Part shown: piece by piece, positions 15,401-62,639 of the stretch
Position numbering within the stretch: the first letter of the stretch is position 1
Layout of the letters: each line of letters opens with the position of its first letter
NCBI GenBank assembly: GCA_029964075.1
Contig: CM057142.1
Location: 37,388,392-37,452,391 of the forward strand
Length of the DNA: 64,000 nucleotides
Source: Patiria pectinifera
Taxonomy: Eukaryota > Echinodermata > Asteroidea > Valvatida > Asterinidae
Direction: 5' to 3'
The notes under the pieces: generated by a model
Databases searched by the model: none
What the model was told of the DNA's origin: nothing
Seen by the model: the letters and a program-made list of their open reading frames with translations, nothing else
Translations under genes and position numbers: made by a program

Positions 15401-18400
15401 CAATTATAACACCACTCAAAATACAAAGAAGAAAGTTCAATACCCAACCTGTTAAGTTTCAGCTCAGTGGATATAATACACTTTCTGAGTAAACAGTGAA
15501 AACCATGCACAACCTTTTGATCACGAAACATGATTTTGTCTATATAACTCTTTATTTCCAAAAAAATCAGTCAATTGACTGATCACTGGAAATCACCTAC
15601 ATTTCTTGATTTCTTCTAAATGCCAGCAATCCAGACGGATAATTTCACGAGTTAAGTACCAGTTCAATCTTTAATCCAAGTAAGCTTTTTGATAATGTTC
15701 GGTAGGAAACTTTTGGGATAAATGCAAATTTTCTTATGTGCCTTTAAGAACAGCAGTTTCACTTTCATGTTCTAGACCTACCTGTTTAAATTTTAACGTG
15801 ATAACCATGTGGGATCTGCTACTGGTTGCATTCATGTTGGTGGAGGCCGTCGTTCTGTTGAGCGTTCCTTGATCCGTCAGATGCTCAATTTGCTTGTAAT
15901 CCCTGACAGGTACAGTCTAAATGTGTAAAACAAAACACACAAATTCCAATATGAAAAAAAGGATTTGAAAAAAGCCAGTTTCTTTTCCAATGATGGTCGG
16001 CCGACCATCGTTGGAAATTGATACAAAAATTCCACCTCTTGAAAATGACAGCACAGCAGGTGCCATGATATCACGGGATGCTTGAGACTTTTAATTCACT
16101 TCCAGTCCAGTGAGGTACGAGTCGTGATTGATAAGTTCGTGGACACGTTCGTGGCCACGAAGGTAGAAGGAGACGAGCTTTACAGTTTTGACTGATATGG
16201 TGTGCAGTTCAACTTGTTGAATGATTACACAGAAAGTTTGTCTGGAAAAATTGGATCGAACGGAAAAAACGAACCAACAAACTCAAAAATGGCAACATTG
16301 TCCCTTGAAAAGTTGTGCCTGAGTCCATTTCTAATCTGGGCCAAACAGCTTTGGGACCCAACGAGCTGACACCTTGGACACTTGGACACGATGATTGATT
16401 TTTTCCATTTTCTCCATTTTCAAGGTTAAATTCTCAGGAACTGGTGACTGTCAAGGTTTAATTACCTGTTAACAGAAAAGATAATAACTTCAAATATTCT
16501 GTGTAATCATTCAAAAAGTTGAACTAGACACAATATCAGTCAAAACTGTGTAGCTCATCTCCTTCTACCTTAGGCCATGAACTAATCAACCACCACTCGT
16601 ATTTCATAATAACTTGGTAGTTAAAAAAAGAGAAGTATTCATCAGACTGTAATTCAAAAAAAGTTCGGACAGTACATCTTGTCTTACCTTGAGTCCCTCC
16701 ACATAGAAGCCTGACTGTGGGTTCTGTCTTACTTTCAGGGCATGGAAGGCACCTTTGGTTGGCTTCACTAATAAGTCTCGAACCTTTACCAAAAAATAAA
16801 TAAATAAATAAAGAAATACAAAAACTAAACAGACATGATAATGTATGTTATCAGTCATCCAGTAGTAGTTGATGATTTTTCTTAATTGAATCAAATACTG
16901 GAACTTACTTAATTTTGCAACTGTGCGACGTTGCGTCCGAAACCATCGGACTTCGTCAGGCAACTGGTGACCCGGTGGACTGGTCACGTGAGGAAGAGCA
17001 GTGGCACAAAAGAGGCATCAAGGAAGCCATCTGGGAAAGGGTCGAACAACCAACACTCAACAAAAGAGGGGGGCTACGCTTCAACCTATCACATGCACGG
17101 GACCGGGCCATTCAAGGGATTCCTAGCCGTCTGTCACGTGACCAGTCCACCGGGTCACCAGTTGCCTGACGAAGTCCGATGGTTTCGGACGCAACGTCGC
17201 ACAGTTGCAAAATTAAGTAAGTTCCAGTATTTGATTCAATTAAGAAAAATCATAAACAGACATGAGTTTGATTACAGAAACAAAAATAAATGCACCCACT
17301 GCAATATAAGATTTACACTGACCCTGTCAAGGTGGCCAAGTGGTTAAGACAACTGCACTATAATTAAGCATAGGGTCAAAGGTTCAAGTCCACCCCGAAG
17401 AAACAAGTGAATTTTTTTACTTGCATGCTCTTCGACACACAGTGTTGAAGGTAATATGCAACATTTGCTTTTGCTGTAATTTTCAGAAATGGATGGATTT
17501 GATTAGTGTTTTATAGCAAATATTGTTACACGGACCTGTTCAAAGTTTTGTTTTCATAGATGCTGGAAAAACCAAGAAAAAATGCTGTTCTTGTTGTCAG
17601 GTTTCCTGACCCTACTTTAGACGAAACGGAGCAATTTATAGACATCGGGGAATTGCCAAGTCAGGGAATCAGACTAGCTGGCTTGCACCCGTTCACTGAT
17701 GTAACTGAGTGCAAACAAAATGTGGACTAACTAAATTTGGTAAATTGGGGGCAGTATTTGAAAAATAGTCAGTTTTTCTCAATGATGGTCGGTCGACCAT
17801 CGTCAGAAATCGATACAAAAATTCTACTTTTCTTGAAAATGACAGCACACCAGGTGCCATGTTTTCACAGGATGCTTGAGAATTTTATTCACTTACAAAG
17901 TTACAGTCAAGTGAGGTATGATAATAATTTGGCAGTTTTGTTTTTTGATGTTTGCCAACCCTTTAACAAAATTACTTCTAGTAAGGGCAAAACCTAAATA
18001 TTATTGTGAACAATGACAACGCATCATTAATAAACAAAACAGTAAAAAATGGAGACATACCTGCTCATTGTAAATCTCCAGCATACTGAATGACACCTGT
18101 AGTTGTTTAGTGGTGTCTGTATTACTGTTGATTGCTTTGAACAGTTCATTACATGTGATGGGTACGATACCCTTGTTTGCTCCATAGCCAATCATCGAGT
18201 AGCTTTTGCCGGAACCGGTCTGACCGTATGCAAATAAGGCAGCATTGTAACCCTGCCAAGCGTTGTCCAGCACTCCTCTTCCAAGATCGTTGAAAACAAC
18301 CGTCTGTAATGGCAGGAGCATGGGCATTTGGATAATTAACATTTGCTTCATGGATATATAGCTAGCCAGGCTTTGTGTGACCACAGTTTGAAGACAGGAG

Positions 18401-21400
18401 ATAGGAGAAATGGAAGCATAGAATTGTGACTAACACAGCAACTAAAGGCTGGTTCATACTCGGCGCAAACGCGAACGTAAATTTGTGACGTAAGGGCAAG
18501 TTTTCACGCTGCGAATTCGCAAAAGCTGAACATATTTCAACTCCGGCGTATTTCACAGTGAATGCTTTGTGACGGCAAAGTCGCATCGCAATCACTTGAA
18601 GTGTGAACCGGCCTTGATACAGGAAACGTTTCTGGCTTAGTGTTAAACCCTTCCTTCCAGGTGTGTAACTTTTCATTTTAGCTGCGAGTTAAACTCAATT
18701 CGGTGTTATTTTAAAACCATGCGGACTCTATTTTCGCAAACAACTTACACCACATTAGGGCTGTCCCGAATATACCGAATATTCGATCATCAACCAAATA
18801 TTCAAATAGCTTTTTGCCGGTTTGAATATTTGAAAACAACAAAACTAGGCACATACCATAGAGCTATATTAAATTACTAGAGCGCTAACTTCGTATACAA
18901 AGTAATGCCTGCTGGGCGCATCCATGTTTGTGCACAAACCTATGGAGACCTAGACATTTTGTACGGCTTTTGTACGGCTATTTGCGTATCTGCGTTTGTA
19001 TTCCATACCAGTGCATTAACGAAGCCAATACGCCCAAAGCCGAAACACAAGATCAGCAAATGAGCGTGTCATTTTGCTCTTCGCAAACAGCGCAACGCGT
19101 GCGCGTATTCCTTGCAGATGCTTTTTGCCGTCACGTTTTTTTTAACCGTCAATGACGCGCTTAAGTTTTTTGCGTATGTTCTACTTGCGCCTTGCATGTA
19201 GAGTACACTTTCAAAATTTAATCCATCTAATTTCTTTATGTTCTACAAACACGCACATGAATTCAAAATGTCTGCGCCCAGGACGGCTTCAAAGCGTCTC
19301 CGCGTGCAGAATGACGAGTTAGTGCTCTAGTAATTTAATAATAGCTCTATGGCACATACACACATGACAGTGATGTTATTTTTATCGTAAAGTTCCGGCG
19401 CTTTACTGTCGGGTTTCACTTTTTTGTCGATGGTGGTTCATTGTTCACATCCTTTTGGCAGGTTAAAGCCCGTTACAGTTATAAAATAAAACACTCCAGC
19501 GCTCCATATCGATCGTCACACGCATATATTTTAACTGGCGCACTCTTCATGCACATTTTTACCAGCGCAGTATGCAGTTAGTTGCAGCTGGCAGTTTTGA
19601 ATATCCGAATATTTGGTCCAATGTAGTTTCGAGTAATGAATAATAAATTTTCGAAAGTGGACAGCCCTACACCAAATCAAGTACAACCTGTGTTTTAAGC
19701 AATTGTAAAACAGTTTCTGGATGCCCCTAAAGGCTCAGCATGACCAACCAATGTGTTGAAGTACCGTAATGTTGGAGAAAATAAACAATGGGATGGATTC
19801 CATTCATCCCAAGGCCATTGTAGGGTTCATTGGATTGAAATGATGTCTGAACATACACGTGATGTACCGGTACCGTACCTAATTGACCTGCATGTACATG
19901 TAATATAACAACCGAGACAGTTTACAATGTACCTGATCTGCATAACCGTCGTTGGTTGGAGTATTCAATCCTTCTTCGTTTTCTTGAAAGCCATCATGTG
20001 ACCAGTAAGAGTAGTCGTACGCAAAGGTATGCACCTTGCCATTGTCTGGGTTGGTTAGACTGGTTACATTGCCTTCCATTGAAACCACACATTTTGAATT
20101 GGCAGCTAATTCTCTCTGTAAAAACAAAACATACAAATTATCATTCTGCAGAGTTATAATAATAATAATAACAACAATAATTACCCTGGATTGGACATTT
20201 GGGAGACATCCCCATAGACTTGTGCACACAATTTTTCAAACTTAAGTGTGCTCTAACCCAATATTCCCTTGTCCTTTTTCCACAAATTTCGGTACGTTTA
20301 CTCACGAGTAACAAATATAATCTAATTGCGATAGCAAAATTTTGCCTCTAAGAGGAATATCAGTCCCATTCATTGTGCACATAAATGCACAGTCGGGACC
20401 AAGGCTTTATGTTTGTTATAACCAGAATTTTGTATTAACAGAGTTTGTACTAACGAGAGTCGACTGTACAGAGGAAAATTAGTGAACTTCTTATATGGAA
20501 ATCTTTCCCCGATGTCTCCCATCGTGCGAAGAAATTACGATAGTGCGTCTCTGTAATGGTACCATTACACATATAATTGGCTTCTTGTATAGCGCTAATG
20601 TCCATCACGAAGTGACGCTCCTGGTGCTCTATTATTACCCTGGTTTTAGCACGGCTGCCATTACGGCGCTCCAGCATTGAAGGAATTCCTTCCTACCAGG
20701 TACCCATTTACTACACCTGGGTGGAAAGAGGCAATCATACAAAATGTAGTCAAGTGCCTTGCACAAGCACCATGTTCCCCGTCAGGATTCGAACCCATGT
20801 ACCACGGCACACGAGTCAAAAAAATTGTAACCATTGGACCATAGCACCCAGTAGACTAGAACATAACATCAAAGGAAACTCTACTACAGACATCGCTAAC
20901 AAGTAACAGGTGGAAAAAAAGTTGTGCATTATTTCTTGGCAAAAAAACAAAACTTCAAAAGTGAACCAAGTCATTTTTCTTTTATTTAATTAAAAGAAAA
21001 GCCTTTAGTAAAACCACTTAACCTTGGATAAAGATAACTACCGTAAGTACAGTTAAATTTATTCACACTTTCATTGGGCATATACAATGTATCAATAAAA
21101 TATTACATTCTCCCGATCAAAGCTAATTTACCATTCCCTCTTAGATATTCTAGGTCATATATTTTTAAATGCAAACATCAGTTTTATCCTAATATTAAAT
21201 ATAAGTAAAGCACTGTTTTTATAACACCTTAAAAAAAAGGGCAAAAAGATTATAATCTGGAGTGACCATTTCCCTATATGTCCACATTGGTAGCTAAAAT
21301 GCAAACTAATACTAATAAAAATGGTCGGAATTACTATTTCGACAAAATTTGCAACTCTTACTTAAACATAACAACGTTCAAAAACAAATTGGTTGGCTTT

Positions 21401-39659: not shown

Positions 39660-39987
39660 GGGGCTGTATCATAAGTACGACGCCTCATAGGTCCGACGCC
39701 TCATAAGTCGGATCGGACTTATGAGGCGTCGGACTTATGAGGCTAAATTCCGCCTCATAGGTCCGACGCCTCATAAGTCCGACGCCTCATAAGTCCGACA
39801 ATGGACAAACGCTGTTTCGCACTTTCGGACTTATGAGGCGTCGGAGCTATGAGGCGTCGGACTCATGCGGCGTCGAGCCTATGAGGCGCAATAAATAAAT
39901 GTTATGCCTCATAAGACCGACGCCTCATAAGTCCGAAATTTCGGACTGCGTCGGACCTATGAGGCGTCGGACTTATGAGCGTACCCC
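39660..39987. mobile_element. hAT-like insertion built of 15-bp inverted repeats
   Basis: The interior is almost wholly the word GACGCCTCATA[AG]GTCC and its complement, in both orientations. Flanks AATTAAAT (39652-39659) and AATTAAAT (39988-39995) are a perfect 8-bp duplication; ends GGGGCTGTA and GCGTACCCC. Confidence 0.75.
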
Positions 39988-40756: not shown

Positions 40757-41628
40757 TGAAGCCCGGGAAGGGACAGGGTGGAATTTTTTTTTTGGAGTTT
40801 GCTAATTCGTTCGCACGAATTACTAATTCGTTCGCACGAATTACTAATTCGTGGGAACGAATTACTAATTCGTTCGCACGAATTAGCAATTCGTGCGAAC
40901 GATTACTAATTCGTGCGAACGAATTACTAATTCGTGGGAACGAATTAACAAACTCCAGTAATTCGTTCGGACGAATTACTAATTCGTTCGCACGAATTAC
41001 TAATTCGTGGGAACGAATTACTAATTCGTTCGCACGAATTAGCAATTCGTGCGAACGAATTACTAATTCGTGCGAACGAATTACTAATTCGTGCGAACGA
41101 ATTAACAAACTCCAGTAATTCGTTCGGACGAATTACTAATTCGTGGGAACGAATTAGTATTCGTGGGAACGAATTAGTATTCGTTCGCACGAATTACTAG
41201 GCTTAATTCGTTCCCACGAATTACTAATTCGTGCGCACAAATTACTAATTCGTTCCCACGAATTGCTAAATCGTTCGCACGAATGAGTAATTCGTGCGAA
41301 CGAATTAGGAATTCGTGCGAACGAATTAGTAATTCGTGCGAACGAAATAGCAATTCGTGCAAACGAATTAGGAATTCGTGGGAACGAAATAGGAATTCGT
41401 GGGAACGAATTAGTAATTCGTGCGAACGAAATAGCAATTTGTACGAACGAATTAGGAATTCGTGGGAACGAAATAGGAATTCGTGGGAACGAAATAGGAA
41501 TTCGTGGGAACGAAATAGTAATTCGTGCGAACGAATTAGCAATTCGTGCGAACGAATTAGTAATTCGTGCGAACGAATTAGCAAACTCCAAAAAAAAATT
41601 CCACCCTGTCCCTTCCCGGGCTTCATAA
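40757..41628. mobile_element. TIR-bounded array of AATTCGTNCGNACGAATT palindromes
   Basis: ATGAAGCCCGGGAAGGGACA...GGAGTTTGC at the left is inverted at the right end. Between them about 35 copies of a 21-bp unit, an 18-bp AATTCG[TG]...CGAATT palindrome joined by ACT/AGT/AGC. GGAGTTTG motifs also occur internally. Open frames on both strands are by-products of the period being a multiple of three. Confidence 0.85.
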
Positions 41629-41775: not shown

Positions 41776-41938
41776 ATACCTGGCTTGGACAAAATAATCA
41801 CTTCTTTGTGCCTGCCCTTACCCAGGTGGCATGAATTCTTTTGCATGGTGGCATGAATTCTTTTGAATTCAAAGGCATCGTCACTACGCTACGGAAGCGT
41901 ATTTAGGACATGACCGAAAATATTTTTGAGGCCCACTA

Positions 41939-42180
41939 CTTCGCCCGGGCGGATTACTATTTCGCCCGGGCGGATTGCTATTTCGCCCGGGCGGATTGCT
42001 ATTTCGCCCGGGCGGATTGCTATTTCGCCCGGGCGGATCGCTATTTCGCCCGGGCGGATTAGCATTTCGCCCGGGCGGATTACTATTCCGCCCGGGCGGA
42101 TTACTAATTCGCCCGGGCAGACTACTAATTCGCCAGGGCAGATTACTAATTCTCCCGGCCGGGCAGACTACTAATTCACC
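41939..42180. repeat. 21-bp array of CGCCCGGGCG palindromes
   Basis: About 11 units of TTCGCCCGGGCGGATTACTA with the spacer varying as GCTA/ACTA/AGCA and the core decaying toward the right end. Non-coding despite open frames. Confidence 0.9.
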
Positions 42181-43241: not shown

Positions 43242-44160
43242 CTAACATCCCTTACACATCGAGGGACTGCAGGCTAATCGGCAACGGCTTGGACCTTCTT
43301 GGGGTCTGTTGCCACCCCCATCCGCTGAGACAATGTGCCCAAATAACTCACGTTGAAATAAATTGCACTTGCTGGGCTTCAGCTTCAGCCCAGCATCCCT
43401 CAACCTACCCAACACTATGCGGAGACGCTCTTGGGTCTCCTCAACCGTTCGACCAAACACAATGATGTCGTCTAGGTAAATCAAAAAGATTTCCCACTGC
43501 AGGCCCCTCATGACCTGCTCCATGAGGCGCTCAAATGTTGCTGGAGCGTTGCATAACCCAAAGGGCATGCACTTCCAGCGGTAGAGACCATTCCTCACCA
43601 CAAAGGATGACTTCTGGCTGTCGTCTTCATCGAGAGCTACCTGCCAGTACCCTGACGCTAAATCTAAGGTACAGAACCTTTTCGCCCCATGCAACGCATC
43701 AAATGTCTCACCAATATGTGGCACAGGGTAAACGTCCTTGATGGTGACAGCGTTAAGCTTCCGGTAGTCCACACAGAAGCGTTTCGTCCCATCCTGCCTA
43801 CCAGGACAACGTTCGCAGCCCAGGGGCTGTTAAAAGGCTCTATGATGCCTGTCCCCTGGAGGTCAACAACTTGCCTCAGAATCTCCTCCTTGTAACTATA
43901 TGGGTGACGCCATGGCCGCTCCTTAACCGGCCTTGCATCTCCGGTATTGATGTGGTGTCGAACCACATCAGTCCGGCCAATATCGAATTCACCCCTCAAA
44001 AAGACATCTTGAAAATCTCTCAAACATCCTTGGACCAACCCATGTTTTTCTACGTCAACATTGGCTTTACACCGATCAAATAAATCGACCAAGTGCTCGG
44101 GTAACTCAGGCTCTGCGGCACAAGTAGCCACTTTGCCTACCTGAATTGCACTCGCCTCTT
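43242..44160 (-). pseudogene. Gypsy reverse transcriptase (frameshifted)
   Basis: Two overlapping minus-strand frames. The upstream one carries the pre-RT region with GIIEPFNSPWAANVVLV; the frame changes near 43795. The downstream one begins DYRKLNAVTIKD and contains TLDLASGYWQV, MPFGLCNAPATFERLM and the catalytic YLDD (43467-43478). Family assignment to Ty3/gypsy is firm. Confidence 0.88.
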
Positions 44161-44318
44161 CCACGGAGATAACTCCTGCGGTTGTCCCCTTTCTAGCTGT
44201 CCTGGTCTCACGACCAGGATTAAAAACTCTTAGCGGGACGTACTCAGTCCCTGCTTCCACCAATGATCACCTTAGCGCTAAGCTTTTCGTGGCTAACTCA
44301 GCTCCTCCCTCTAGAGGT

Positions 44319-49674: not shown

Positions 49675-49731
49675 CTTGAAGTTTGTCACAAGTTTAATCA
49701 TGCGGGGTCTGAACTGATTAGTAGTAGGTGC

Positions 49732-49937
49732 GGCGTAAATCACACCCCGTTTTGTGTGGTGGAGGTGGAGGGAATTGTGGAGGGAGTGAATTGTGCATGC
49801 GTAATGACGTCATAGGATGACGTCACAGGATGTGGGCGTGACTGGATGACGTCACGAGTTGATGCTGCGCATGCGCAATTCACTCCCTCCACAATTCCCT
49901 CCACCTCCACCACACAAAACGGGGTGTGATTTACGCC
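49732..49937. repeat. Terminal palindrome, left tip
   Basis: GGCGTAAATCACACCCCGTT... and its complement flank a centre with three TGACGTCA palindromes. Each element end could thus fold on itself independently of the long arms. Confidence 0.85.
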
Positions 49938-52699
49938 ACACATTTTTTCTGTTTCTTTTTATTGTTTATGTTTTGGATGTGTATATGGCGCGCGTTAGCA
50001 CTGCGCATGCGCGGACAAGTGCGGGCAAGTCCGGGCAAGTCTGGACAAGTCTGGACATGTCTCAACGATGACATCATTGTTTTTACAATTTTTTTTACTA
50101 TTTTACAATAGCTAAAGCAGTGATTGGACGGATGGTTGTTTAGCAACCGCGCGCCTTATTTGATTGGTTGTAGGAGGGGTGGATCAAAACAAAACTACAC
50201 CATTTCAAACCGTATTCATCATTTCGTCGTAAAGCGTTGAAGAGAGCACACTTTATTTTAGAAAGTCTACTGCTATTGCTAGTGTTTCCACTGTATTCGT
50301 GCTGCAATAATGGTTGGTCACCCGGACTTGACGATGACGAATTTTATTTTTAACCAGAAATCAACACAACAAATACTTTCTTACACAAGGTTCAAACAGC
50401 CCCACTTTCATCAACCAAATACTGTATAAATTAGCATGATAACAAGAGTGGATACAAAATATTTATTTATTACAACTTTATTTCGTACCTCAAACATATG
50501 TCCATCAACTGATTAAAAGATAATTAAACTGTTGTTACAATAACTCCTGCACTGACAATCACTCTCGGGAGATTGCTATCAAATTAAAATCAACTGTATT
50601 TAATGATTTTCAGTATTAAACTGGATTGATCCTTTTTACACTTTGCTATTCGTGTCCGATATAAGGGGAAAATGAACAAATATTTCCCACAATTAAAATC
50701 GATTACAACAATTAATCAGACCTGTCAAAAATACTCGTCTCTAATGTTTCTCGGCAATACATGTTACCGGAATTTAAACTCAATAAACCCAGTATTTCGT
50801 AGTTAAAACACTAAGTGCAAATATTCTCCATGCATCACACAGCATCTAACCTTGCTGAGCCATGTTGGATGATCTACAGACTCATCAATCATGACTCAAC
50901 TTTCACTTGGATTGTGCTTCTTATTTAGTTATCATCATCATTCGTCCCCTTAATAACTTTGAATATGGATCGAGTTAAGCGATTGATAAAACAAATATTA
51001 AAACTTGTGTGAATGAAAAAAATGATCACTATCAGACAAGTCATGATATATGATAAATATAATATCATGTTCAATACGTGTAAGTAGCAAGGCTTACAGA
51101 ATATTGCGATATATATAGACACAGTGTTTTTGTTTTAATCAGTTTCCAAGAAAGCATAACTTTCAACTCTGACACAGCTCCCTTGAAATCTTTGTAGATT
51201 CTTCATAACTTGTAACAGCTTAAAAAAATCAATGTCAACTTCTCTTCAATATCGATTTCTAACAAAACCTGGTGTTAACCCAACAAAATATGACTTGTTC
51301 TGAAGTAACAATGAGACAATCCAGTGACACAAGATGCAATTAGACAACTCAATTGGTTATTTTCACAGTAAGTGTGGAACTTTAACAGTAAATGTTTCAG
51401 AAAACAAATTTGGAATCATCAATATTAAATATGTGATATAAGTATTATATTATATAACTTATGAAGTGAAGCCACAGGTAAACATGATATGCGCAGTTAT
51501 CGCACCAAAAGGACTGGCTTCAATTTTGGTGTACTGTCCAAAGGAGTTTAATACATTTAATGCCGACTTTAATTAATCAGGTGGCCTCTGTCCAATAAAA
51601 AAAATAAAAAAAATAAAAATGTGTACACTTCAAACTTGCAGTTCGATTTCTCATAAAAAGTTGGGTAACACAAAGATATGTACAAGTTATAAACATCATA
51701 AACCATTTTCAGTAAATCTTGAGTTTTCTTTCTGATTCCATGCCAAACTCTCATCGTGCCACGGATGAATATTCTAATATATTCCATACTGAGTTAAATA
51801 GTTACCAGAGTTGTAAAAAGTCAGCGGCGACATGACCCGGTGATTAGACACACATGTACACATTTATTCAGCTGAAAGTATTTATGTGAGGCTGTTCTCT
51901 AACAATACTCATTCAAACAGCCGCAGTCTCGTTTCACTGTGCTTAAATTTGTATCCTTGTGGAGACACGCACACAATAGGGAACAAAACATTGTAAAGGT
52001 CTCCACAAGGCAATTTCTATAGATGAATAGGTCTCCACAAGGTTTTCACGAAATATATATATATATGGATTTGACTCAAAAACAAAGAATTTCCAAGGTG
52101 GGTTGATCCGTCGCAAATGGAAGAGTTTTAGAAAAGGGATATTAAGTCCGAATTTCAGCCAAGGAAATTAATTCTGGTTAAAAAAAGAGCATTTTAAAAA
52201 CTTTTTCACTTTCAAAATTGAAAACTTTACTACACGAGAACAAAGAAATGTCTCCACACGTGTACACATTTGAGAGACAGTGTTTCTGAATGTTGTTGAA
52301 TTTAATCCCTTTATATTTCCTCCTAATAGATTTGATGTTAAACGCTTAATTGTACGTTTTTCAAGACAGTGTATGAAATCAAGTCTTAAATCTACAATCT
52401 TTGTAATTTATTTGAAGAAAACTTTAGTTATATCTTTCGATTCACATTTCTGGCAAGCAACAAAGCCAATATTAAGCTGTCCTCGATTCTATTACATTCC
52501 ATTTACACTGAGCATGTATTAGGCTTAACTCTCAAATAATATTGATAATAAAGAGTCACAATGTCGATTTTCGTTGGATATCCATTACTATCGAATCTGT
52601 GAGGCGGGTACAACATATTTGACCCAAATACAAAGGAGAGAAAAGAATGCGTTACGATCCGCTTTCCATGAATTATAAGAGGTCCACTTTTCTTTGTTT

Positions 52700-53038
52700 A
52701 GAAAGAGAGGACTTGGAGCCCGACTCGATCTAGATGATTCGTGACTTGACCCAGGGATTAATCCAAGTGACTCGTATCTGTTACTTTGACTCCAACTAGA
52801 TGACGTTTGACTCGGGAACTTACTCGTGATTTGGAGCCTGACTCGATCCAGGTGGTTCATGAATTTGTCCAGGGATCGATTCAAGTGACTCGTATCTGTG
52901 GCTCTGACTCTGCTAGATAACGTGTGACTCGGGAACGTACTCGTGACTGGGAGACTGACTCGCTACAGGTGATTCGTGAATTAGCCCAGGGATCGATTCA
53001 AGTGACTTGCATCCGTGACTCTGACTCCAACTAGATAA
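52700..53038. repeat. 118-bp tandem repeat at inner end of left arm
   Basis: About 2.8 units, each with GACTC/GAGTC words, CAAGTGACT and ACTAGAT; matched inverted at 59193-59520. GAGTC-rich stretches also occur at 7978-8050 and 14215-14280 outside the element. Confidence 0.8.
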
Positions 53039-55885
53039 TGTCAAATTTTGCAATTAGAAAATATATGAAATTAAAAAAAAAAATAAAAAAAAATTGTTTG
53101 ACGTCATCATTACATATGTATGTCAACATTTTCGGATTTTCGGACACTTTGGATTTTGCATACTATTATCAATATCTACATTGTACATGTACCTACCCAC
53201 CAAGTTTCATAACAATCGGACCTTCCCTTATTGTTTTTCAAAAAACAAATCACATTTTTGATGATGTCACGATTGATGACATCACACATTTTTCGAAATT
53301 TTGTGCATTTATTTATGACTTACCAAACCCAATACAAAAGAATTTTGAATGTAGCATGTTCGTTCATCTATACCGGTATGGTGATAATCTTCAAAACTTC
53401 AAAAAATCCATATCATATGACATGTATGATGATGTCATCATGATGTCACCTCAAATTTCATTTATAACACTTCCCTGACTATGTTTTTTTCCAACCCAAT
53501 GGGCCTTGTACATTGCACAATGTAGTTCTCTAGATACATGTCCGTGTGTATGTACCGGTAGGCCATTGAAAAATGCACCCTTAAGATGACTTACATGTAC
53601 ATGACTTACAATGTATGACGTCATCGTGACGTGACTTTTTTTGTGTGTCCATGCACGACTTTACTATGGGGGTCCTAGTGTACATGTATGCCAAGTTTCA
53701 TCAAGATTGAAATATGTTTATTGTCCAAAGTGGCAAAGAAAATGAAACATGTACTGGTACATACAAAGTACATAGAATTTGGGATAGAAGATCAAGGAGG
53801 AAGAAGAACAAAAACATCTGAACAAAAACAAAGGATTTTCTGCAAAGTCTGCAAAAAAAAAAAAAAAAGGCCAACAAGAATTTGAACCCTATACACATGT
53901 ACCATGATGTTCCTTGTGCATGTTCAGAATAAACATACATGTACTTGTTAATACTGAAAACACCTTAACCATGTTAAATAACACAAAGAAGAACGGACAT
54001 TGGTTGCGGGACATTTACCAATGATATGACCACTCTATCTTCATACAAACTCTCTATTAAAGTGTGAAGCTTGAACATGCTTCTTGCTAGCTACATCTGG
54101 CCATGCATTCACACCTCTCTTTGGATTTAAAAATGTGATTCTGAAATTCCAGAAAAATGCTGGATCAAGTGAAAACTTTGATAATGGCGCAAACTTAATT
54201 GTTATCACTTTTCTCAATCTTTCACATTATGTATCATGCAAAATGCCATGTCATGCAAAATGCCACTCATTTCAACTATCAAGTGCATTGTGTACATGTC
54301 CAAGTACACGTACAATGAACACATCAACAAAGGATCCTGTATGTGCATGACCAAACACAGCCTTGCATGCCTCATGCCCCTACATATAATGCTGCTTTGA
54401 ACACTTTCAAGAACATGTACTGGTATACTATGTACATGTAGGCCTGTAATAAAATATTTGATTTTGCTGTTTAGTCACCAGTATTTTTTTTTTCCGGCAA
54501 GGTACTTTACACCAACACTGAATTACTGGTGTGAGTGTGCTACATGGGGTGATAAAGGGAGGTTAAGTTTTCTCTTCTTCAATGACTGTCAGTGCTAAAA
54601 TGTATTTATTATGTCAATCATTGATCATTTATCAAGTCAATCATGCCAATCATTGCTAAACATTTACAAAATTAAATGCAAGGTCACATCCTTCATTCAA
54701 ATCTTATGTTTTAAACCAAATTTAAACGAACAAATTGTCATAGCTCAGTATATTTCTCTCCTTTATCAGTAGCATGCATGTCTGGCATTATCCAACTAAC
54801 AAAATGTGACAGAATTATTAAAATTCTTCCGTAACATTAGATGCTGTAGATGTAGATGCATCTCTTATTTCATCTCTTTTGCTAAAATGACAATGACTTT
54901 GAATGTCCTTTGAATTTAAATAGAAAATATGTTGACTTTCATAATCTATTCAAGAATACACCCAGGAACAGGCATTTACATGTACATTTTTGTGTAAATC
55001 ATTGAATATGACAGAATGTCGACATTTGTTCATTATTGTCTTCTATGGATATGATGGAAGGCCCTTGAAGTCATTTGAATAATTCTGTCGTTACATTCAG
55101 GTTGCATGACAAGTTCAGCAGGCACAGCCTAACAGAACACATTATGCACTGATATTGATCCAGCGTGCATACATTATAATAACTCACTCAAACGACTCAT
55201 GTTTAATAATAGAAAGTCTTGTAGAATCGCCGCTAGGGGAAAATAATGAAAGATGGCACAACATGAATCTTAGGACAACGGAAAAGGGAAGCAAGCTTGG
55301 GAAATCCATAAAAGAAATTGAACAAATAAATGCTAGAAGTTCCAGTCATCTGCAATACAAAAAACAATACTCAAATATTCAGAACCAAAAAAACCCAGCC
55401 GGGATACAGAGGGACGCAAAATGAAGGCTGTGTTTGATGGGTGGTTTAGACGCTGTCTTCTTGCTGATGATGCCTTGGATGAAATACATACCGGTAGTAT
55501 CAGCCAATTGCTTGATACATGTAGATGTACGGGATCCGTACAAGGCTCAACAACTACAATGTATCATTGCATACAGGACACACAGACAATTTGAAGTGTA
55601 GACAACACATATTGGCCTCTCACAAATAAACACAAAGATAAAGAACACATTATCCAGAAACTAACAAAATTAACAGAACCAACACTAGACAGGCGGAGGA
55701 AAGATGCTTTGATGCATACAAGTTTATAAAATAATACTGAAAAATAAAATAAAGTTGGTGAAGGGATTATTACCTGAAAACAAAATATTTGTTATACAGT
55801 ATTTTTGGTTGAAATGAATGGTCGTTAGAAGAAAAAAAATGGTGTTTAAAAAGAGTTTCAACTTTTGCAGAACATTGAACGAAAG
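53039..55885. other. Polinton interior without recognisable genes
   Basis: About 2.8 kb, A/T-rich with many ATGTACATGT-like words and poly-A runs. The longest frames (for example 53038-53478 plus) lack family resemblance. Seen as decayed or foreign filler between the left arm and the LTR-like insertion. Confidence 0.6.
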
Positions 55886-55889
55886 ATAT

Positions 55890-56993
55890 TGTAACGCGGC
55901 GGCCGGGCAAGGTGGGGTAGAGGGCGCTATTAAAGACTTTCTGCCGTCACCTTGCTAGATGTAATGATGCCAAGTCACAATAAATTTATATTTCCCGGAT
56001 CCGTTTGGTTGAAATGTACAACCAGGCAGTCTTACTTCATTTGGATATGACTAACAAAAGGACGAAGACACTTCTTCTATAATTCGACAATAATTTATTC
56101 TTAAAAACTCCAACAATATTATTTGCAGTCAATCAACGTTAATACGTCAGCTCGCTGACTCAGTTTTCTCCGGCTATGACTCCGTTTACTCCGGCTATGA
56201 CTCAGTTTACTCCGGCTACCGCAGACTCAGTTTACTCCGGCGATTCCCAATTAATTACCCGCCAACTCCTAGCTGGAATGACTCCGCTAGCACCAAGCTG
56301 GAAAAATACTCCAATAACTCCGCCAGCTCCCCGCTTGAAAATACTCCAATAACTCCGCCAGCTCCCCGCTGGAAAATACTACATTAACTCCGCCAGCTCC
56401 CCGCTGGAAAATACTTCAATAACTCCGCCAGCTCCCCGCTGGAAAATACTCCAATAACTCCGCCAGCTCCCCGCTGGAAAATACTCCAATAACTCCGCCA
56501 GCTCCCCGCTGGAAAATACTACATTAACTCCGCCAGCTCCCCGCTGGAAAATACTCCAATAACTCCGCCAGCTCCCCGCTGGAAAATACTACATTAACTC
56601 CGCCAGTTCCCCGCTGGAAAATACTTTAGTCTACGCTGACATCGCAGTGACGCTAACACTGGTACGTAGAACCCTCTTCCTGTCCCGTCTTATCAATCGC
56701 CCCAAACCCGCTTTCAATAAAGTCCCGGAGTAAATTGAGTCGGTGAGTTGCCGCCGACCAGATCGTCCCTAAAACCTGAACGAATCACATCAAGCACTAT
56801 CGGCAACTGATTCGTTCGTGCGGCGTTTGAACTTTTATACCGCCCACAACTGCATCACAAAAATGATTTCATTGGTCAACGCGACCTTGCACACAAAACT
56901 CGCGCGCGTAATCAAAACAATAGAAATGCGTTCTAGTACGAAGGTTTCGCCGTAAGGGCGTACCCCAAATATGGTAAGTGCCTGGCCTAATCA
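55890..56993. mobile_element. Probable solo LTR carrying a 35-bp tandem repeat
   Basis: TGTAACGCGG ... CTAATCA with ATAT on each side (55886-55889, 56994-56997). Composition (G/C-rich) differs sharply from the surroundings. No copy elsewhere in the window to confirm the ends. Confidence 0.4.
56300..56640. repeat. 35-bp tandem repeat, about 10 units
   Basis: Unit AATAACTCCGCCAGCTCCCC-GCTGGAAAATACTCC, nearly perfect, alternating CCAATAACT and ACATTAACT variants. Not a CRISPR: no spacers and a eukaryotic context. Confidence 0.9.
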
Positions 56994-57396
56994 ATATTTA
57001 TGAGTTATATACTGAGCGGCAGAACAAAGATGGCGGCTTCCGATCGGACATCGTGAGTACGGCTGGCTGGAATGAATTCTGGTAGTTTTATCTCAAGTGT
57101 GTGATCGATTGTTATCTCTATTTAACGATAATAATCACATGAATTCGCAACTTGCAGGCACCTCACGTCACAATATGTTTCTTTCCATCCTTCATTTGAA
57201 ATGACAGTTACAACAAAAAACTACACAGGTCTATTAAAACTCCTTAAAAACTACACAAAAAATATTTGCAGTTCATAAGAAAATTAAATGTAGATTCCTG
57301 TGAAATTCTTCATTCAACAAAGTGAACATGCCAAGTGCACACTGAATAACAACCGTGCTGTATGATCGATTGTAACGTTGTGCGAGTGAGACAGAC

Positions 57397-57748
57397 AAGT
57401 CTGGACTTGTCTACGTCTTGTCTGGACTTGTCTGAAAGTGTCCGCGTGAGCACGCGCGCGCGTGCACGCGCGACACTACCGCGCGCTGGCCCGCACTTGT
57501 CCGCGCATGCGCAGTGCTAACGCGCGCCATATACACATCCAAAACATAAACAATAAAAAGAAACAAAAAAAAATGTGTGGCGTAAATCATGCCCCGTTTT
57601 GTGTGGTGGAGGTGGAGGGAATTGTGGAGGGAGTGGTGGAGGGAGTGAATTGCGCATGCGCAGCATCAACTCGTGACGTCATCCTATGACGTCATCCAGT
57701 CACGCCCACATCCTGTGACGTCATCCTATGACGTCATCCTCCATGACG
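57397..57748 (-). repeat. Internal third copy of the Polinton tip
   Basis: Same order and orientation as the right terminus (GACTTGTCT repeats, CGCATGCGCAGTGCTAACGC, GTGTGGCGTAAATCA, GGAGGTGGAGGGAATTGTGG) but with five or six TGACGTCA sites and without the outer half of the palindrome. It directly adjoins the ATPase fragment. Confidence 0.8.
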
Positions 57749-57843
57749 TCACTCCGCCACAGACACGCCCCGTTTTATGATCCTCGTCGGGGTTACCGAT
57801 ATGATCCTCGATGAGGATCATGATCCTCCACGAGAAAACGGGG

Positions 57844-58308
57844 TCAAATACGCAGCGATCCATCGCGGGGATTTTTAAACAGCACCATGTAGTGAGTATT
57901 CAGACTGATGGTTCTCATTTCTTTCCCTTTGTAAAATAAATTTTGCAGAATCAACACCACCGACAAATTCCTATGGTGACTTCCTTTCGTGAAAAGTTCT
58001 GTCACTCGTTTGTTGTTGCCGCTTTCACTCATGAGATCATCTATCACGATTAGAGTTTTCTTGGATCGATCCAAGTGGGTGTAAACATCTTCGGGGATTC
58101 CTTCATTGAATTGGATATGGGGAAGTGCACTTGCTAAGTACGTATACGCATCTTAATACTCGCCGTAACACCACAAAATAGAATCAGGCTGGGGGTCGAT
58201 GATGTTTTCACCAGTAGGCAACAACAGACGTTTGACAAACTGTGTCTTGCCACATCCAGTAGGCCCAGCTATGACACAGGTGAATGGGTGTTTCATTTGA
58301 ACCGACAT
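57844..58308 (-). pseudogene. Polinton packaging ATPase (FtsK/HerA type), truncated with one stop
   Basis: From an ATG at 58308: FTCVIAGPTGCGKTQFVKRL holds the Walker A motif at about residues 16-22; an in-frame TAA follows at codon 52 (58153-58155). Downstream in the same frame LIVIDDLM is Walker B, then TKGSHHRNLSVVLILQNLFY and LFKNPRD, the sensor region typical of Polinton and adintovirus ATPases, which package DNA into capsids. The C-terminal third is missing where the frame meets the tip-like sequence at about 57843. Confidence 0.82.
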
Positions 58309-58437
58309 GGTGTTAAATGGTGAGGGATCGATGAAAAAGTCATAATTATACGTAAAATAGCCTCCCTAAAAAGAATACAAGCAGGGTTCTGTTTTTTCTT
58401 CTTTCTTTTTTTCTTTTTTTTTTTCTTCTTCTTGAAA

Positions 58438-58830
58438 TTACACGTCAAGGTGGATCGTGGACACACCGTCTGCCGCTACCTTTCTTTTGGGATAGAAATA
58501 GGTAAAGGCCGACTTCTCCTGGACGTAGGTGTACATGGCCGCATGATGCATACGGAATCCACGATTAACCCCTCCTGCAGCGCACTGGGATTCCAGGACT
58601 TGCAGATACAGCTCCTTCGTGATGTCGTTCGATTTGTGGTTGAATCCCTTGCAGCTGAACTTACAGCTGGGGCCAAAACAGAAGTAGGTTTTACTTGAGA
58701 GGGCAACTATTCCATCTCCTCCCCATTCGAGAAGGTGGTCAGAGTTGGTCACCTTGCTGCAGCTGTAAAGGGAAGGCCAAACGTAGCATCCCTCTGCAAA
58801 AACATTTGGTTGAGAGGCTCTGCAAAACAT
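58438..58830 (-). pseudogene. Protein-primed DNA polymerase B, C-terminal fragment
   Basis: 130-codon open frame with its own stop at 58438-58440. LLEWGGDGIVAL, TYFCFG, KFSCKGFN, NRGFRM, MYTYVQEK and YFYPKRKVAADG recall the end of Polinton-type family B polymerases, where the palm is followed by a K-x-x-x-KG strand. The catalytic DTD motif and everything N-terminal are missing; about the first 35 codons have no clear match. It lies 130 bp upstream of the ATPase on the same strand. Assignment from memory of the family. Confidence 0.6.
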
Positions 58831-58839
58831 GTGCTCGCT

Positions 58840-59192
58840 GCCTGAAACAGATCAGACATGTTAGAAGCCTTCAATTGGGCTGTTGTTCGTTAACAAAAGA
58901 AGATAAGAGACACATATCTGAAGATTGGAAAAGTGAAGTTGATTTTGATGACCATAAGTCCAATATATATCTGTGCTTGATATTGAGATATGTTATGTTA
59001 TGCGCATGTTCAAGTAACCTACAAGATGAGCGAGCACGAGTATAATGATGTCCTTTTGAAGTAATCTGCCTCGAGTCAATCTTAAAGTCACAACTTGTTG
59101 TGAGAAACTTACAAAATGCAGTATTCTGCTGACTCCAGTCAATTTTTTGTGTGAACGAGTCACAAGTCACGAGTGAGGTCCCGAGTCACACG
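58840..59192. other. Junction between polymerase fragment and right arm
   Basis: No gene recognised; non-repetitive until GAGTC-rich sequence begins at about 59155. Confidence 0.5.
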
Positions 59193-62100
59193 TTATCTAG
59201 TTGGAGTCAGAGTCACGGATGCAAGTCACTTGAATCGATCCTGGGCTAATTCACGAATCACCTGTAGCGAGTCAGTCTCCCAGTCACGAGTACGTTCCCG
59301 AGTCACACGTTATCTAGCAGAGTCAGAGCCACAGATACGAGTCACTTGAATCGATCCCTGGACAAATTCATGAACCACCTGGATCGAGTCAGGCTCCAAA
59401 TCACGAGTAAGTTCCCGAGTCAAACGTCATCTAGTTGGAGTCAAAGTAACAGATACGAGTCACTTGGATTAATCCTGGGTCAAGTCACGAATCATCTAGA
59501 TCGAGTCGGGCTCCAAGTCCTCTCTTTCTAAACAAAGAAAAGTGGACCTCTTATAATTCATGGAAAGCGGATCGTAACGCATTCTTTTCTCTCCTTTGTA
59601 TTTGGGTCAAATATGTTGTACCCGCCTCACAGATTCGATAGTAATGGATATCCAACGAAAATCGACATTGTGACTCTTTATTATCAATATTATTTGAGAG
59701 TTAAGCCTAATACATGCTCAGTGTAAATGGAATGTAATAGAATCGAGGACAGCTTAATATTGGCTTTGTTGCTTGCCAGAAATGTGAATCGAAAGATATA
59801 ACTAAAGTTTTCTTCAAATAAATTACAAAGATTGTAGATTTAAGACTTGATTTCATACACTGTCTTGAAAACGTACAATTAAGCGTTTAACATCAAATCT
59901 ATTAGGAGGAAATATAAAGGGATTAAATTCAACAACATTCAGAAACACTGTCTCTCAAATGTGTACACGTGTAAAGTCATTTCTTTGTTCTCGTGTACTA
60001 AAGTTTTCGAGTTTGAAAGTGAAAAGTTTTTAAAATGCTCTTTTTTTTAACCAGAATTAATTTCCTTGGCTGAAATTCGGACTTAATATCCCTTTTCTAA
60101 AACTCTTCCATTTGCGACGGATCAACCCACCTTGGAAATTCTTTGTTTTTGAGTCAAATCCATATATATATATATTTCGTGAAAACCTTGTGGAGACCTA
60201 TTCATCTATAGAAATTGCCTTGTGGAGACCTTTACAATGTTTTGTTCCCTATTGTGTGCGTGTCTCCACAAGGATACAAATTTAAGCACAGTGAAACGAG
60301 ACTGCGGCTGTTTGAATGAGTATTGTTAGAGAACAGCCTCACATAAATACTTTCAGCTGAATAAATGTGTACATGTGTGTCTAATCACCGGGTCATGTCG
60401 CCGCTGACTTTTTACAACTCTGGTAACTATTTAACTCAGTATGGAATATATTAGAATATTCATCCGTGGCACGATGAGAGTTTGGCATGGAATCAGAAAG
60501 AAAACTCAAGATTTACTGAAAATGGTTTATGATGTTTATAACTTGTACATATCTTTGTGTTACCCAACTTTTTATGAGAAATCGAACTGCAAGTTTGAAG
60601 TGTACACATTTTTTTTTTATTTTTTTTTTTTATTCGACAGAGGCCACCTGATTAATTAAAGTCGGCATTAAATGTATTAAACTCCTTTGGACAGTACACC
60701 AAAATTGAAGCCAGTCCTTTTGGTGCGATAACTGCGCATATCATGTTTACCTGTGGCTTCACTTCATAAGTTATATAATATAATACTTATATCAGATATT
60801 TAATATTGATGATTCCAAATTTGTTTTCTGAAACATTTACTGTTAAAGTTCCACACTTACTGTGAAAATAACCAATTGAGTTGTCTAATTGCATCTTGTG
60901 TCACTGGATTGTCTCATTTTTACTTCAGAACAAGTCATATTTTGTTGGGTTAACACCAGGTTTTGTTAGAAATCGATATTGAAGAGAAGTTGACATTGAT
61001 TTTTTTAAGCTGTTACAAGTTATGAAGAATCTACAAAGATTTCAAGGGAGCTGTGTCAGAGTTGAAAGTTATGCTTTCTTGGAAACTGATTAAAACAAAA
61101 ACACTGTGTCTATATATATCGCAATATTCTGTAAGCCTTGCTACTTACACGTATTGAACATGATATTATATTTATCATATATCATGACTTGTCTGATAGT
61201 GATCATTTTTTTTTCATTCACACAAGTTTTAATATTTGTTTTATCAATCGCTTAACTCGATCCATATTCAAAGTTATTAAGGGGACGAATGATGATGATA
61301 ACTAAAATAATAAGAAGCACAATCCAAGTGAAAGTTGAGTCATGATTGATGAGTCTGTAGATCATCCAACATGGCTCAGCAAGGTTAGATGCTGTGTGAT
61401 GCATGGAGAATATTTGCACTTAGTGTTTTAACTACGAAATACTGGGTTTATTGAGTTTAAATTCCGGTAACATGTATTGCCGAGAAACATTAGAGACGAG
61501 TATTTTTGACAGGTCTGATTAATTGTTGTAATCGATTTTAATTGTGGGAAATATTTGTTCATTTTCCCCTTATATCGGACACGAATAGCAAAGTGTAAAA
61601 AGGATCAATCCAGTTTAATACTGAAAATCATTAAATACAGTTGATTTTAATTTGATAGCAATCTCCCGAGCGTGATTGTCAGTGCAGGAGTTATTGTAAC
61701 AACAGTTTAATTATCTTTTAATCAGTTGATGGACATATGTTTGAGGTACGAAATAAAGTTGTAATAAATAAATATTTTGTATCCACTCTTGTTATCATGC
61801 TAATTTATACAGTATTTGGTTGATGAAAGTGGGGCTGTTTGAACCTTGTGTAAGAAAGTATTTGTTGTGTTGATTTCTGGTTAAAAATAAAATTCGTCAT
61901 CGTCAAGTCCGGGTGACCAACCATTATTGCAGCACGAATACAGTGGAAACACTAGCAATAGCAGTAGACTTTCTAAAATAAAGTGTGCTCTCTTCAACGC
62001 TTTACGACGAAATGATGAATACGGTTTGAAATGGTGTAGTTTTGTTTTGATCCACCCCTCCTACAACCAATCAAATAAGGCGCGCGGTTGCTAAACAACC

Positions 62101-62492
62101 ATCCGTCCAATCACTGCTTTAGCTATTAAAAACAATGATGTCATCGTTGAGACATGTCCAGACTTGTCCAGACTTGCCCGGACTTGCCCGCACTTGTCCG
62201 CGCATGCGCAGTGCTAACGCACGCCATATACACATCCAAAACATAAACAATAAAAAGAAACAGAAAAAATGTGTGGCGTAAATCACACCCCGTTTTGTGT
62301 GGTGGAGGTGGAGGGAATTGTGGAGGGAGTGAATTGCGCATGCGCAGCATCAACTCGTGACGTCATCCAGTCACGCCCACATTCTGTGACGTCATCCTAT
62401 GACGTCATTACGCATGCGCAATTCACTCCCTCCACAATTCCCTCCACCTCCACCACACAAAACGGGGTGTGATTTACGCCGCACCTACTACT
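59193..62492 (-). repeat. Polinton right terminal inverted arm (3300 bp)
   Basis: Inverted copy of the left arm, diverging at its inner edge immediately after TTATCTAG. High similarity, by eye, between arms implies recent insertion or continued gene conversion. Confidence 0.92.
62275..62480. repeat. Terminal palindrome, right tip
   Basis: Same structure as 49732-49937, with TGACGTCA sites between inverted GGCGTAAATCACACCCCG blocks. Confidence 0.85.
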
Positions 62493-62639
62493 CTGATTGC
62501 TTGATGTATCATGCTTTACCTAAGTTACAATTTTAGAGGTGGGAGGAAAAGCCCAGAAGAATATTCTGGAGAAAACCCACGGAATCAGGATTACTTGACT
62601 AATCCTAACGAAAATTCCTTTTTCCTTAATCCTACACCA

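Follow-up and report, generated by a model that had tools for sequence, protein, structure and literature searches.

A gutted member of a long-armed Polinton family in Patiria pectinifera, whose DNA polymerase gene was probably lost by copying of one end over the other

Polintons, or Mavericks, are considered to stand near the ancestry of many DNA viruses of eukaryotes. In an account of intact vertebrate Mavericks their terminal repeats are given as 46–1,447 bp with a mean of 402 bp (PMC8097293), and nine Polintons lacking the gene set for capsid, protease and ATPase have been described elsewhere (PMC4028283). It is hard to observe how the two ends of a Polinton stay similar and by what route defective forms come about. 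Here we describe an element of 12,773 bp with inverted arms of about 3.3 kb, located at position 49720–62492 of a stretch of 64,000 nucleotides of the Patiria pectinifera genome (NCBI GenBank assembly GCA_029964075.1, contig CM057142.1, positions 37,388,392 to 37,452,391 of the forward strand; this whole stretch is called the window below). Comparing it with related elements of the same genome, we consider it quite probable that the element, gutted as it now is, belongs to a Polinton family which lost the gene of its DNA polymerase (PolB) when one end was copied, in inverted orientation, over the other end.

Several known systems resemble this family in one respect or another. Foldback and Galileo also have very long inverted repeats, but our family has Polinton ends, 6-bp target site duplications and genes, and both Foldback and Galileo use enzymes different from those of Polintons. 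Adenoviruses replicate their linear DNA by protein priming and repair their repeats, and variants with enlarged repeats are known in which one end is duplicated at the other. These end-duplicated genomes are laboratory variants and, unlike the family described here, not a multi-copy genomic family. Poxvirus genomes are covalently closed and cytoplasmic, and their replication is unrelated. In poxvirus repeat expansion, as outlined in PMC10230479, one end is duplicated to the opposed end with a deletion at the receiving end, so that long repeats with doubled genes result; our family differs in that it is integrated in a genome and has lost its polymerase. Bidnaviruses are presented as parvovirus-derived viruses that gained a Polinton PolB and whose ends, by that account, form no parvovirus hairpins (PMC4061559). 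This is the reverse trade, as our family lost PolB and has hairpin ends. Polinton-like viruses and PgVV are linear and have been described with long terminal inverted repeats (PMC4642659); they are not the family reported here, and we liken them by this description, without repeat lengths. Among the titles and abstract openings searched, with Repbase and most subscription journals lying outside the search, we found no earlier account of Polintons with long gene-bearing repeats, hairpin ends or such defective forms; a prior description is possible.

The element in the window starts with AGTAGTAGG at 49720 and ends with CCTACTACT at 62492, the outermost bases being AGTAGT and ACTACT. Directly outside these termini the 6-bp target site duplication CTGATT is found on the left (49714–49719) and, identically, on the right (62493–62498). 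By BLAST and pairwise alignment the left arm comprises 49720–53037 (plus strand) and the right arm 59174–62492 (minus strand). The mutually inverted arms are 98.5% identical by BLAST over 3,329 columns, and the pairwise alignment has 3,293 aligned bases with 25 apparent substitutions, nine of which are accounted for by one compensating indel pair, and seven gap events. The inner limits of both arms are the edges of 117-bp tandem arrays (52710–53038 on the left, 59163–59519 on the right), and the core between the arms extends from 53038 to 59173. Thus, coordinates and alignment bear out what had been noticed in a first reading made from the letters alone (the sequence-only reading), namely AGT...ACT ends, CTGATT on both sides and inverted arms of 3.3 kb.

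The same reading had pointed to remnants of an ATPase and of a polymerase inside the element, and both could be confirmed. The ATPase remnant (57855–58365, minus strand) covers codons 1–170 with one in-frame stop at 58153–58155. Its pieces match Pfam Adeno_IVa2 (7e-07) and, weakly, Pox_A32, the only Polinton-related Pfam matches at E ≤ 0.01 among 96 stop-free pieces of the core. The PolB remnant (58441–58731, minus strand) consists of the last 97 codons and is 64–67% identical to its closest relatives. A protein search with this tail returned 37 proteins at E ≤ 0.001, including a Patiria miniata protein (67%) named DNA-directed DNA polymerase in UniRef, and tblastn placed all 37 back at 58441–58776 of the window. 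Against the PDB the tail produced a single match that carries no meaning, and scans of viral contigs with PolB, ATPase, capsid protein and end sequence, and of phage records, found no relatives. Integrase, protease and capsid genes were not found in the element, either by Pfam on core and arm pieces or by tblastn with the family's own proteins at E ≤ 1e-5; in the latter search the ATPase and the start of a gene for a PC4+WW protein were the only matches. This gene start is left as a remnant of 19–22 codons in the left arm (50283–50348, plus strand) and in the right arm (61886–61951, minus strand). A recognizable gene in the arms was rejected, as 48 stop-free arm pieces gave two weak and implausible Pfam matches. 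The window copy therefore has the AGT...ACT termini, the 6-bp duplication and the packaging ATPase of a Polinton, the last present but broken, and has no full PolB, no integrase, no capsid and protease genes and no short terminal repeats. Judged by its sequence, the PolB remnant supports descent from a Polinton, but not autonomy.

Using one end of the element as query, 81 matches were obtained in the genome assembly of 613.5 Mb, many of them as facing pairs 11.6–15.4 kb apart; as genome searches score the best candidates only, the copy number is a lower bound. Ten other elements were read, each as two halves, giving together with the window copy 11 copies for comparison. Long inverted arms are present in all 11, measuring 2.4 kb in C6, 2.67 kb in C20, 2.75 kb in C14b, C21 and C8, about 2.9–3.0 kb in C7c, 3.2 kb in C5 and C16, 3.2–3.3 kb in C7a, and 3.3 kb (left) and 4.5 kb (right) in C9, and the arms are 97–99.8% identical within copies. 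The window copy and nine of the ten relatives have a perfect 6-bp duplication, each a different one; the left end of C16 lacks AGTAGT. Because ten of the 11 copies combine the same arm structure with a perfect duplication of their own, it is very unlikely that arms and target duplication in the window arose by chance, and a chance match of the duplication was rejected on this ground. An assembly error as source of the arms is very unlikely as well, since ten further copies have long arms, nine of them with their own target duplications. The objection raised in the sequence-only reading, that one arm could be an assembly duplication, was rejected accordingly, and its suggestion of a lineage amplified with such arms holds.

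Matches to a capsid protein, a protease, an integrase, an ATPase and two additional frames are found in five relatives (C16, C5, C6, C20 and C7c); several of these matches are broken into pieces. The public homologues of one of their major capsid proteins are named capsid protein, with Patiria miniata (73%) and other echinoderms first among the named ones, and one protease matches Peptidase_C5. Pfam detects rve in C16, C20 and C7c, in the latter two together with a chromodomain, and tblastn finds the integrase in C5 and C6; 224–233 codons of the ATPase are matched in all five. In these relatives PolB is reduced to the last 70–97 codons or so. A tail of this size is found in nine of the 11 copies, whereas neither C7a nor C9 has a PolB match. 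The cores of these two copies, between arms of the same kind, have a DDE_Tnp_4 transposase where the Polinton gene block would be, in C9 along with a YqaJ recombinase.

The arms of the five gene-bearing relatives have genes of their own: both arms match the PC4+WW protein and a protein of 175 residues (p175). Codons 15–82 of PC4 are missing from C20 and C6, and the gene is broken both in C7c and in C5, there in the left arm; C9 has kept PC4 and the whole p175 in the right arm only. The inner arm boundaries vary between lineages. In C5, C16 and C6 the left arm stops inside a protease copy (about the last 34 codons) and the complete protease stands on the right, and in C7a and C9 both arms hold protease pieces only (codons 112–176; 65–93 on the right). 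Selection tests on the genes of the relatives were uninformative, with few differences and a pooled pN/pS (the ratio of nonsynonymous to synonymous polymorphism) of 0.30–1.52, and gave no evidence of purifying selection after the loss of PolB. Taken as a whole, the family is like a Polinton/Maverick in its AGT...ACT ends, 6-bp duplications, PolB remnant and ATPase, and in the integrase, protease and major capsid protein of the relatives; it differs by its 3.3-kb repeats, the lost PolB, the doubled arm genes of the relatives and the terminal hairpins described below.

Elsewhere in the genome there are long PolB frames, the longest of 1,611 amino acids, and five PolB-bearing loci were examined through two to four stretches each. 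At C1:16.56 Mb the element is bounded by 484-bp repeats (99.2%) and flanked by the duplication AATGAC, and the element at C7:13.59 Mb has repeats in pieces over about 0.4–0.7 kb and the duplication CACGCT. These are the two PolB-bearing elements with PC4 that were read at their ends; in the stretches read, each showed PC4 and p175 once, just inside the right end, and a genome-wide PC4 search found one PC4 gene each in the C1:16.56 Mb and C7:13.59 Mb elements. A further element, at C7:18513172-18526165, combines arms of about 2.49 kb (98.4%) with a PolB frame of 1,611 residues and is flanked by the duplication GACCTC. The stretches read, outside of which lies 1.97 kb within the PolB frame, contain no match to the family's capsid, protease, integrase and ATPase proteins; this element is apparently the opposite case to the PolB-less family. 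Beyond short matches, its arm has no detectable kinship with the ends of the other PolB-bearing elements, and for this reason end copying is suggested here by the arms alone. The PolB locus on C17 showed no repeat beyond about 30 bp between the stretches read, and the inverted repeat of about 0.78 kb (91.6%) at C21:28.15 Mb has neither AGTAGT nor a duplication at its edges. The latter locus (C21:28154677-28170504) harbors a block of capsid, protease, integrase and ATPase genes mostly 96–100% identical to those of the window's family and in opposite orientation to PolB; by sequence likeness it is a chimera, pointing to module exchange between Polintons. At C9:3475314-3477659 two inverted, diverged PC4+WW genes stand about 1.2 kb apart, perhaps another end-duplicated lineage.

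In the gene-bearing copies of the family, the right end with PC4 and p175 is found also at the left end in inverted orientation, and PolB survives as a C-terminal tail. Since PC4 and p175 are single at the right end of the two PolB-bearing elements with short repeats and doubled in the family, it is simplest to suppose that the left end was overwritten with a copy of the right one, at the cost of the PolB that stood there. We propose that one end was copied onto the other on a linear replicating form, either by strand switching or by annealing at repeats (end healing), and that the right end in this way replaced the left one, deleting PolB. The PolB-less copies might then have been supplied with PolB in trans by other Polintons, and the copies without integrase, the window copy included, might use an integrase in trans as well. 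To spread with PolB missing, the family would have needed help in trans or a different way to replicate. In the sequence-only reading, arms expanded into the coding region and a non-autonomous lineage had been offered as alternatives. Both seem to apply and are not exclusive; in the relatives the arms are the right end with its two genes, present also at the left end instead of most of PolB.

The two arms of a copy tend to be alike. They were compared in seven elements (14 arms), the window copy, C14b, C21 and C8 being excluded because of their different inner arms. The mean distance between left and right arm is 0.65%, compared with 1.39% after random re-pairing of the right arms, and the fraction of re-pairings as low as 0.65% is 0.0001 of 20,000, among which the true pairing can be. 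In the arm tree, both arms of a copy are sisters in five of the seven copies (support 0.37–0.996). Twelve gap patterns of at least 15 columns were scored, leaving out a terminal gap due to trimming of the C6 sequence: six are mirrored, occurring in both arms wherever a copy has them, five are one-sided, and one is mixed, namely a 1.2-kb deletion present in both arms of C7a and only in the left arm of C9. By direct comparison, a deletion of ~640 bp in the arms of C6 is mirrored.

Nevertheless, a number of observations weigh against our reading. Five of the 12 patterns (in C16, C7a and C7c) are one-sided, the arms of C9 are unlike each other, and over the outer 600 bp the own two arms are closest in only four of 11 copies, with two ties at printed precision. 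The last result would be expected if the copies had spread recently from few sources. Both PolB-bearing controls with short repeats (C1:16.56 Mb and C7:13.59 Mb) were read at their ends only and are distant from the family (PC4 40–73%, p175 34–35% identical), so that neither is a direct ancestor, and the third PolB-bearing element, the one without capsid matches, has arms of 2.49 kb. The arm of C20 stops short of the protease, so that more than one order of events is conceivable. Finally, the supply of PolB in trans is a presumption, and none of the 11 copies carries a full PolB.

The core includes DNA without recognized Polinton genes, and transposase or recombinase genes of other families lie between the arms of C7a and C9. 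Both would fit a different origin, in which two shorter elements inserted nearby in opposite orientation and were later mobilized as a composite with the core as trapped DNA. We regard this as improbable. No second AGTAGT is present at the inner arm edges of the window copy, C14b, C20, C5, C16, C6, C8 and C21, and arms as two free elements were therefore rejected for the edges examined; the inner edge lies instead in a tandem array (window) or inside the protease gene (C5, C16, C6), and the PolB tail and the ATPase stand side by side, adjoining one arm. Alternatively, the arms could have been made locus by locus after insertion, by inverted duplication or by gene conversion of the host. Gene conversion between inverted repeats is common, and the high identity of the arms within copies would agree with it. 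This origin is nonetheless highly improbable: arm boundaries are common to the base at different loci (C14b, C21 and C8; C5, C16 and C6), therefore the arms existed before insertion, and the target duplications are located directly outside both arms.

Copying of the right end over the left, our preferred explanation, would account for the family, and the window copy appears to have changed further. Its nearest relatives are C14b, C21 and C8, in opposite orientation, with which it has in common the loss of all of p175 and of most of PC4 (19–22 codons left per arm), an ATPase broken at codon 170 and an internal end-like block. In the window the ATPase break at 57855 is joined to a 116-bp block (57740–57855, minus strand) that matches a portion of the inverted repeat of the PolB-bearing locus C21:28.15 Mb at 98% identity, followed by a partial copy of the family's end (57486–57737, minus strand; end positions 85–310, 88%), which is also present in C14b, C21 and C8. 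The core segment 55890–57172 was not found in C14b or C8. A part of the left arm, 51071–53037 (plus strand), is single-copy interior spacer in C20. The arms of C14b, C21 and C8 all end at the same base, corresponding to window position 52480, and are followed by about 2.65–2.68 kb of other DNA and then by core that corresponds to the start of the window core at 53038. At this place the window copy alone has an arm extension of 557 bp (52481–53037, plus strand). Since C14b, C21, C8 and C20 have this segment (2761–3318 of the window arm) in one copy only, the extra 557 bp were duplicated in the window copy and the other DNA lost; shared sequence at the junction does not exceed a few bases. The arm growth supposed in the sequence-only reading is thus seen as growth into DNA that is single-copy in relatives; much of the window arm is former spacer, and the arm genes are gone. 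The window copy is accordingly best described, from its gene content, as a gutted derivative, with capsid, protease and integrase gone, the ATPase broken and the arm lengthened.

Each end of the window element forms a near-perfect palindrome of 214 bp (left 49728–49941, with 73 paired positions; right 62271–62484) with a folding z of −24.6 relative to shuffles. Neither these palindromes nor the diverged partial end copy in the core had been mentioned in the sequence-only reading. Long hairpins exist at both ends in ten of the 11 elements, with 65–80 pairs by the longest count; the left end of C14b has a hairpin of 36 pairs only, and C7c has no terminal hairpin. For comparison, no more than 14 pairs were counted in five ends of three PolB-bearing elements and no more than 28 in 20 random window pieces. 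Across 19 ends (18 distinct) 99.5% of the stem cells are paired, and ten of the 73 stem pairs are altered on both strands. The covariation score lies above those of all 500 shuffles, although the shuffle overstates covariation because the ends are related and the structure was derived from one of them. When the partner columns were slid by 1–3, zero or one double-changed pairs remained. Two lineages, C7a/C9 and C5/C8/C14b, account for most of the double changes. At the left end of C16 (about positions 480–560 of the sequence read) the inner flank of the hairpin appears mirrored outside for about 40 bp, as if a hairpin had turned back on itself and been extended over this length by copying.

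These hairpins raise the question whether self-primed, parvovirus-like replication replaced protein priming, so that PolB was not needed. The restriction of hairpins of mostly 65–80 pairs to the PolB-less copies among the ends compared, the ten stem pairs changed on both sides and the resemblance of the C16 left end to a fold-back extension would speak for it. We nevertheless regard this route as unlikely. About eight unpaired bases, AGTAGTAG, lie outside the hairpin, and the 3′ end would need trimming in order to prime; C7c has no hairpin; further pair types number 13 and are not above the shuffle mean of 15.2; and repair can also keep palindromes alike. In addition, no Pfam match to a nicking endonuclease of the rolling-circle type was found in 144 stop-free pieces of the window core and one arm or in the 20 frames scanned in relatives.

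As a speculation to which we give rather little credence, the PolB-less, capsid-carrying copies with duplicated arm genes and the PolB-only element, which has 2.5-kb arms and lacks capsid matches, could be the two parts of a split Polinton system, both arisen by end-over-end copying and complementing each other. The PolB-less branch would have gained co-varying terminal hairpins and might be on its way from protein priming to hairpin priming, a course opposite to the origin of bidnaviruses.

One genome thus presents a graded series of PolB-bearing elements with short repeats, PolB-less elements with gene-bearing arms whose boundary lies inside a gene, and gutted elements with growing arms. This series makes end copying, homogenization of arms and loss of the polymerase testable by comparison alone, and it would be an animal-genome counterpart of poxvirus repeat expansion.

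Outside of the element, the window contains reading frames unrelated to the Polinton at 43242–44266 (minus strand), which by their motifs resemble a Ty3/gypsy reverse transcriptase. Tandem arrays of 21-bp units are located at 40803–41581 and 41935–42162, and 16-bp repeat blocks of alternating orientation at 39669–39979. Frames at 12380–18429 (minus strand) have motifs resembling those of kinesin motor gene exons, and a histone 3′ stem–loop (Rfam RF00032) scores just over threshold at 10764–10809 (minus strand).

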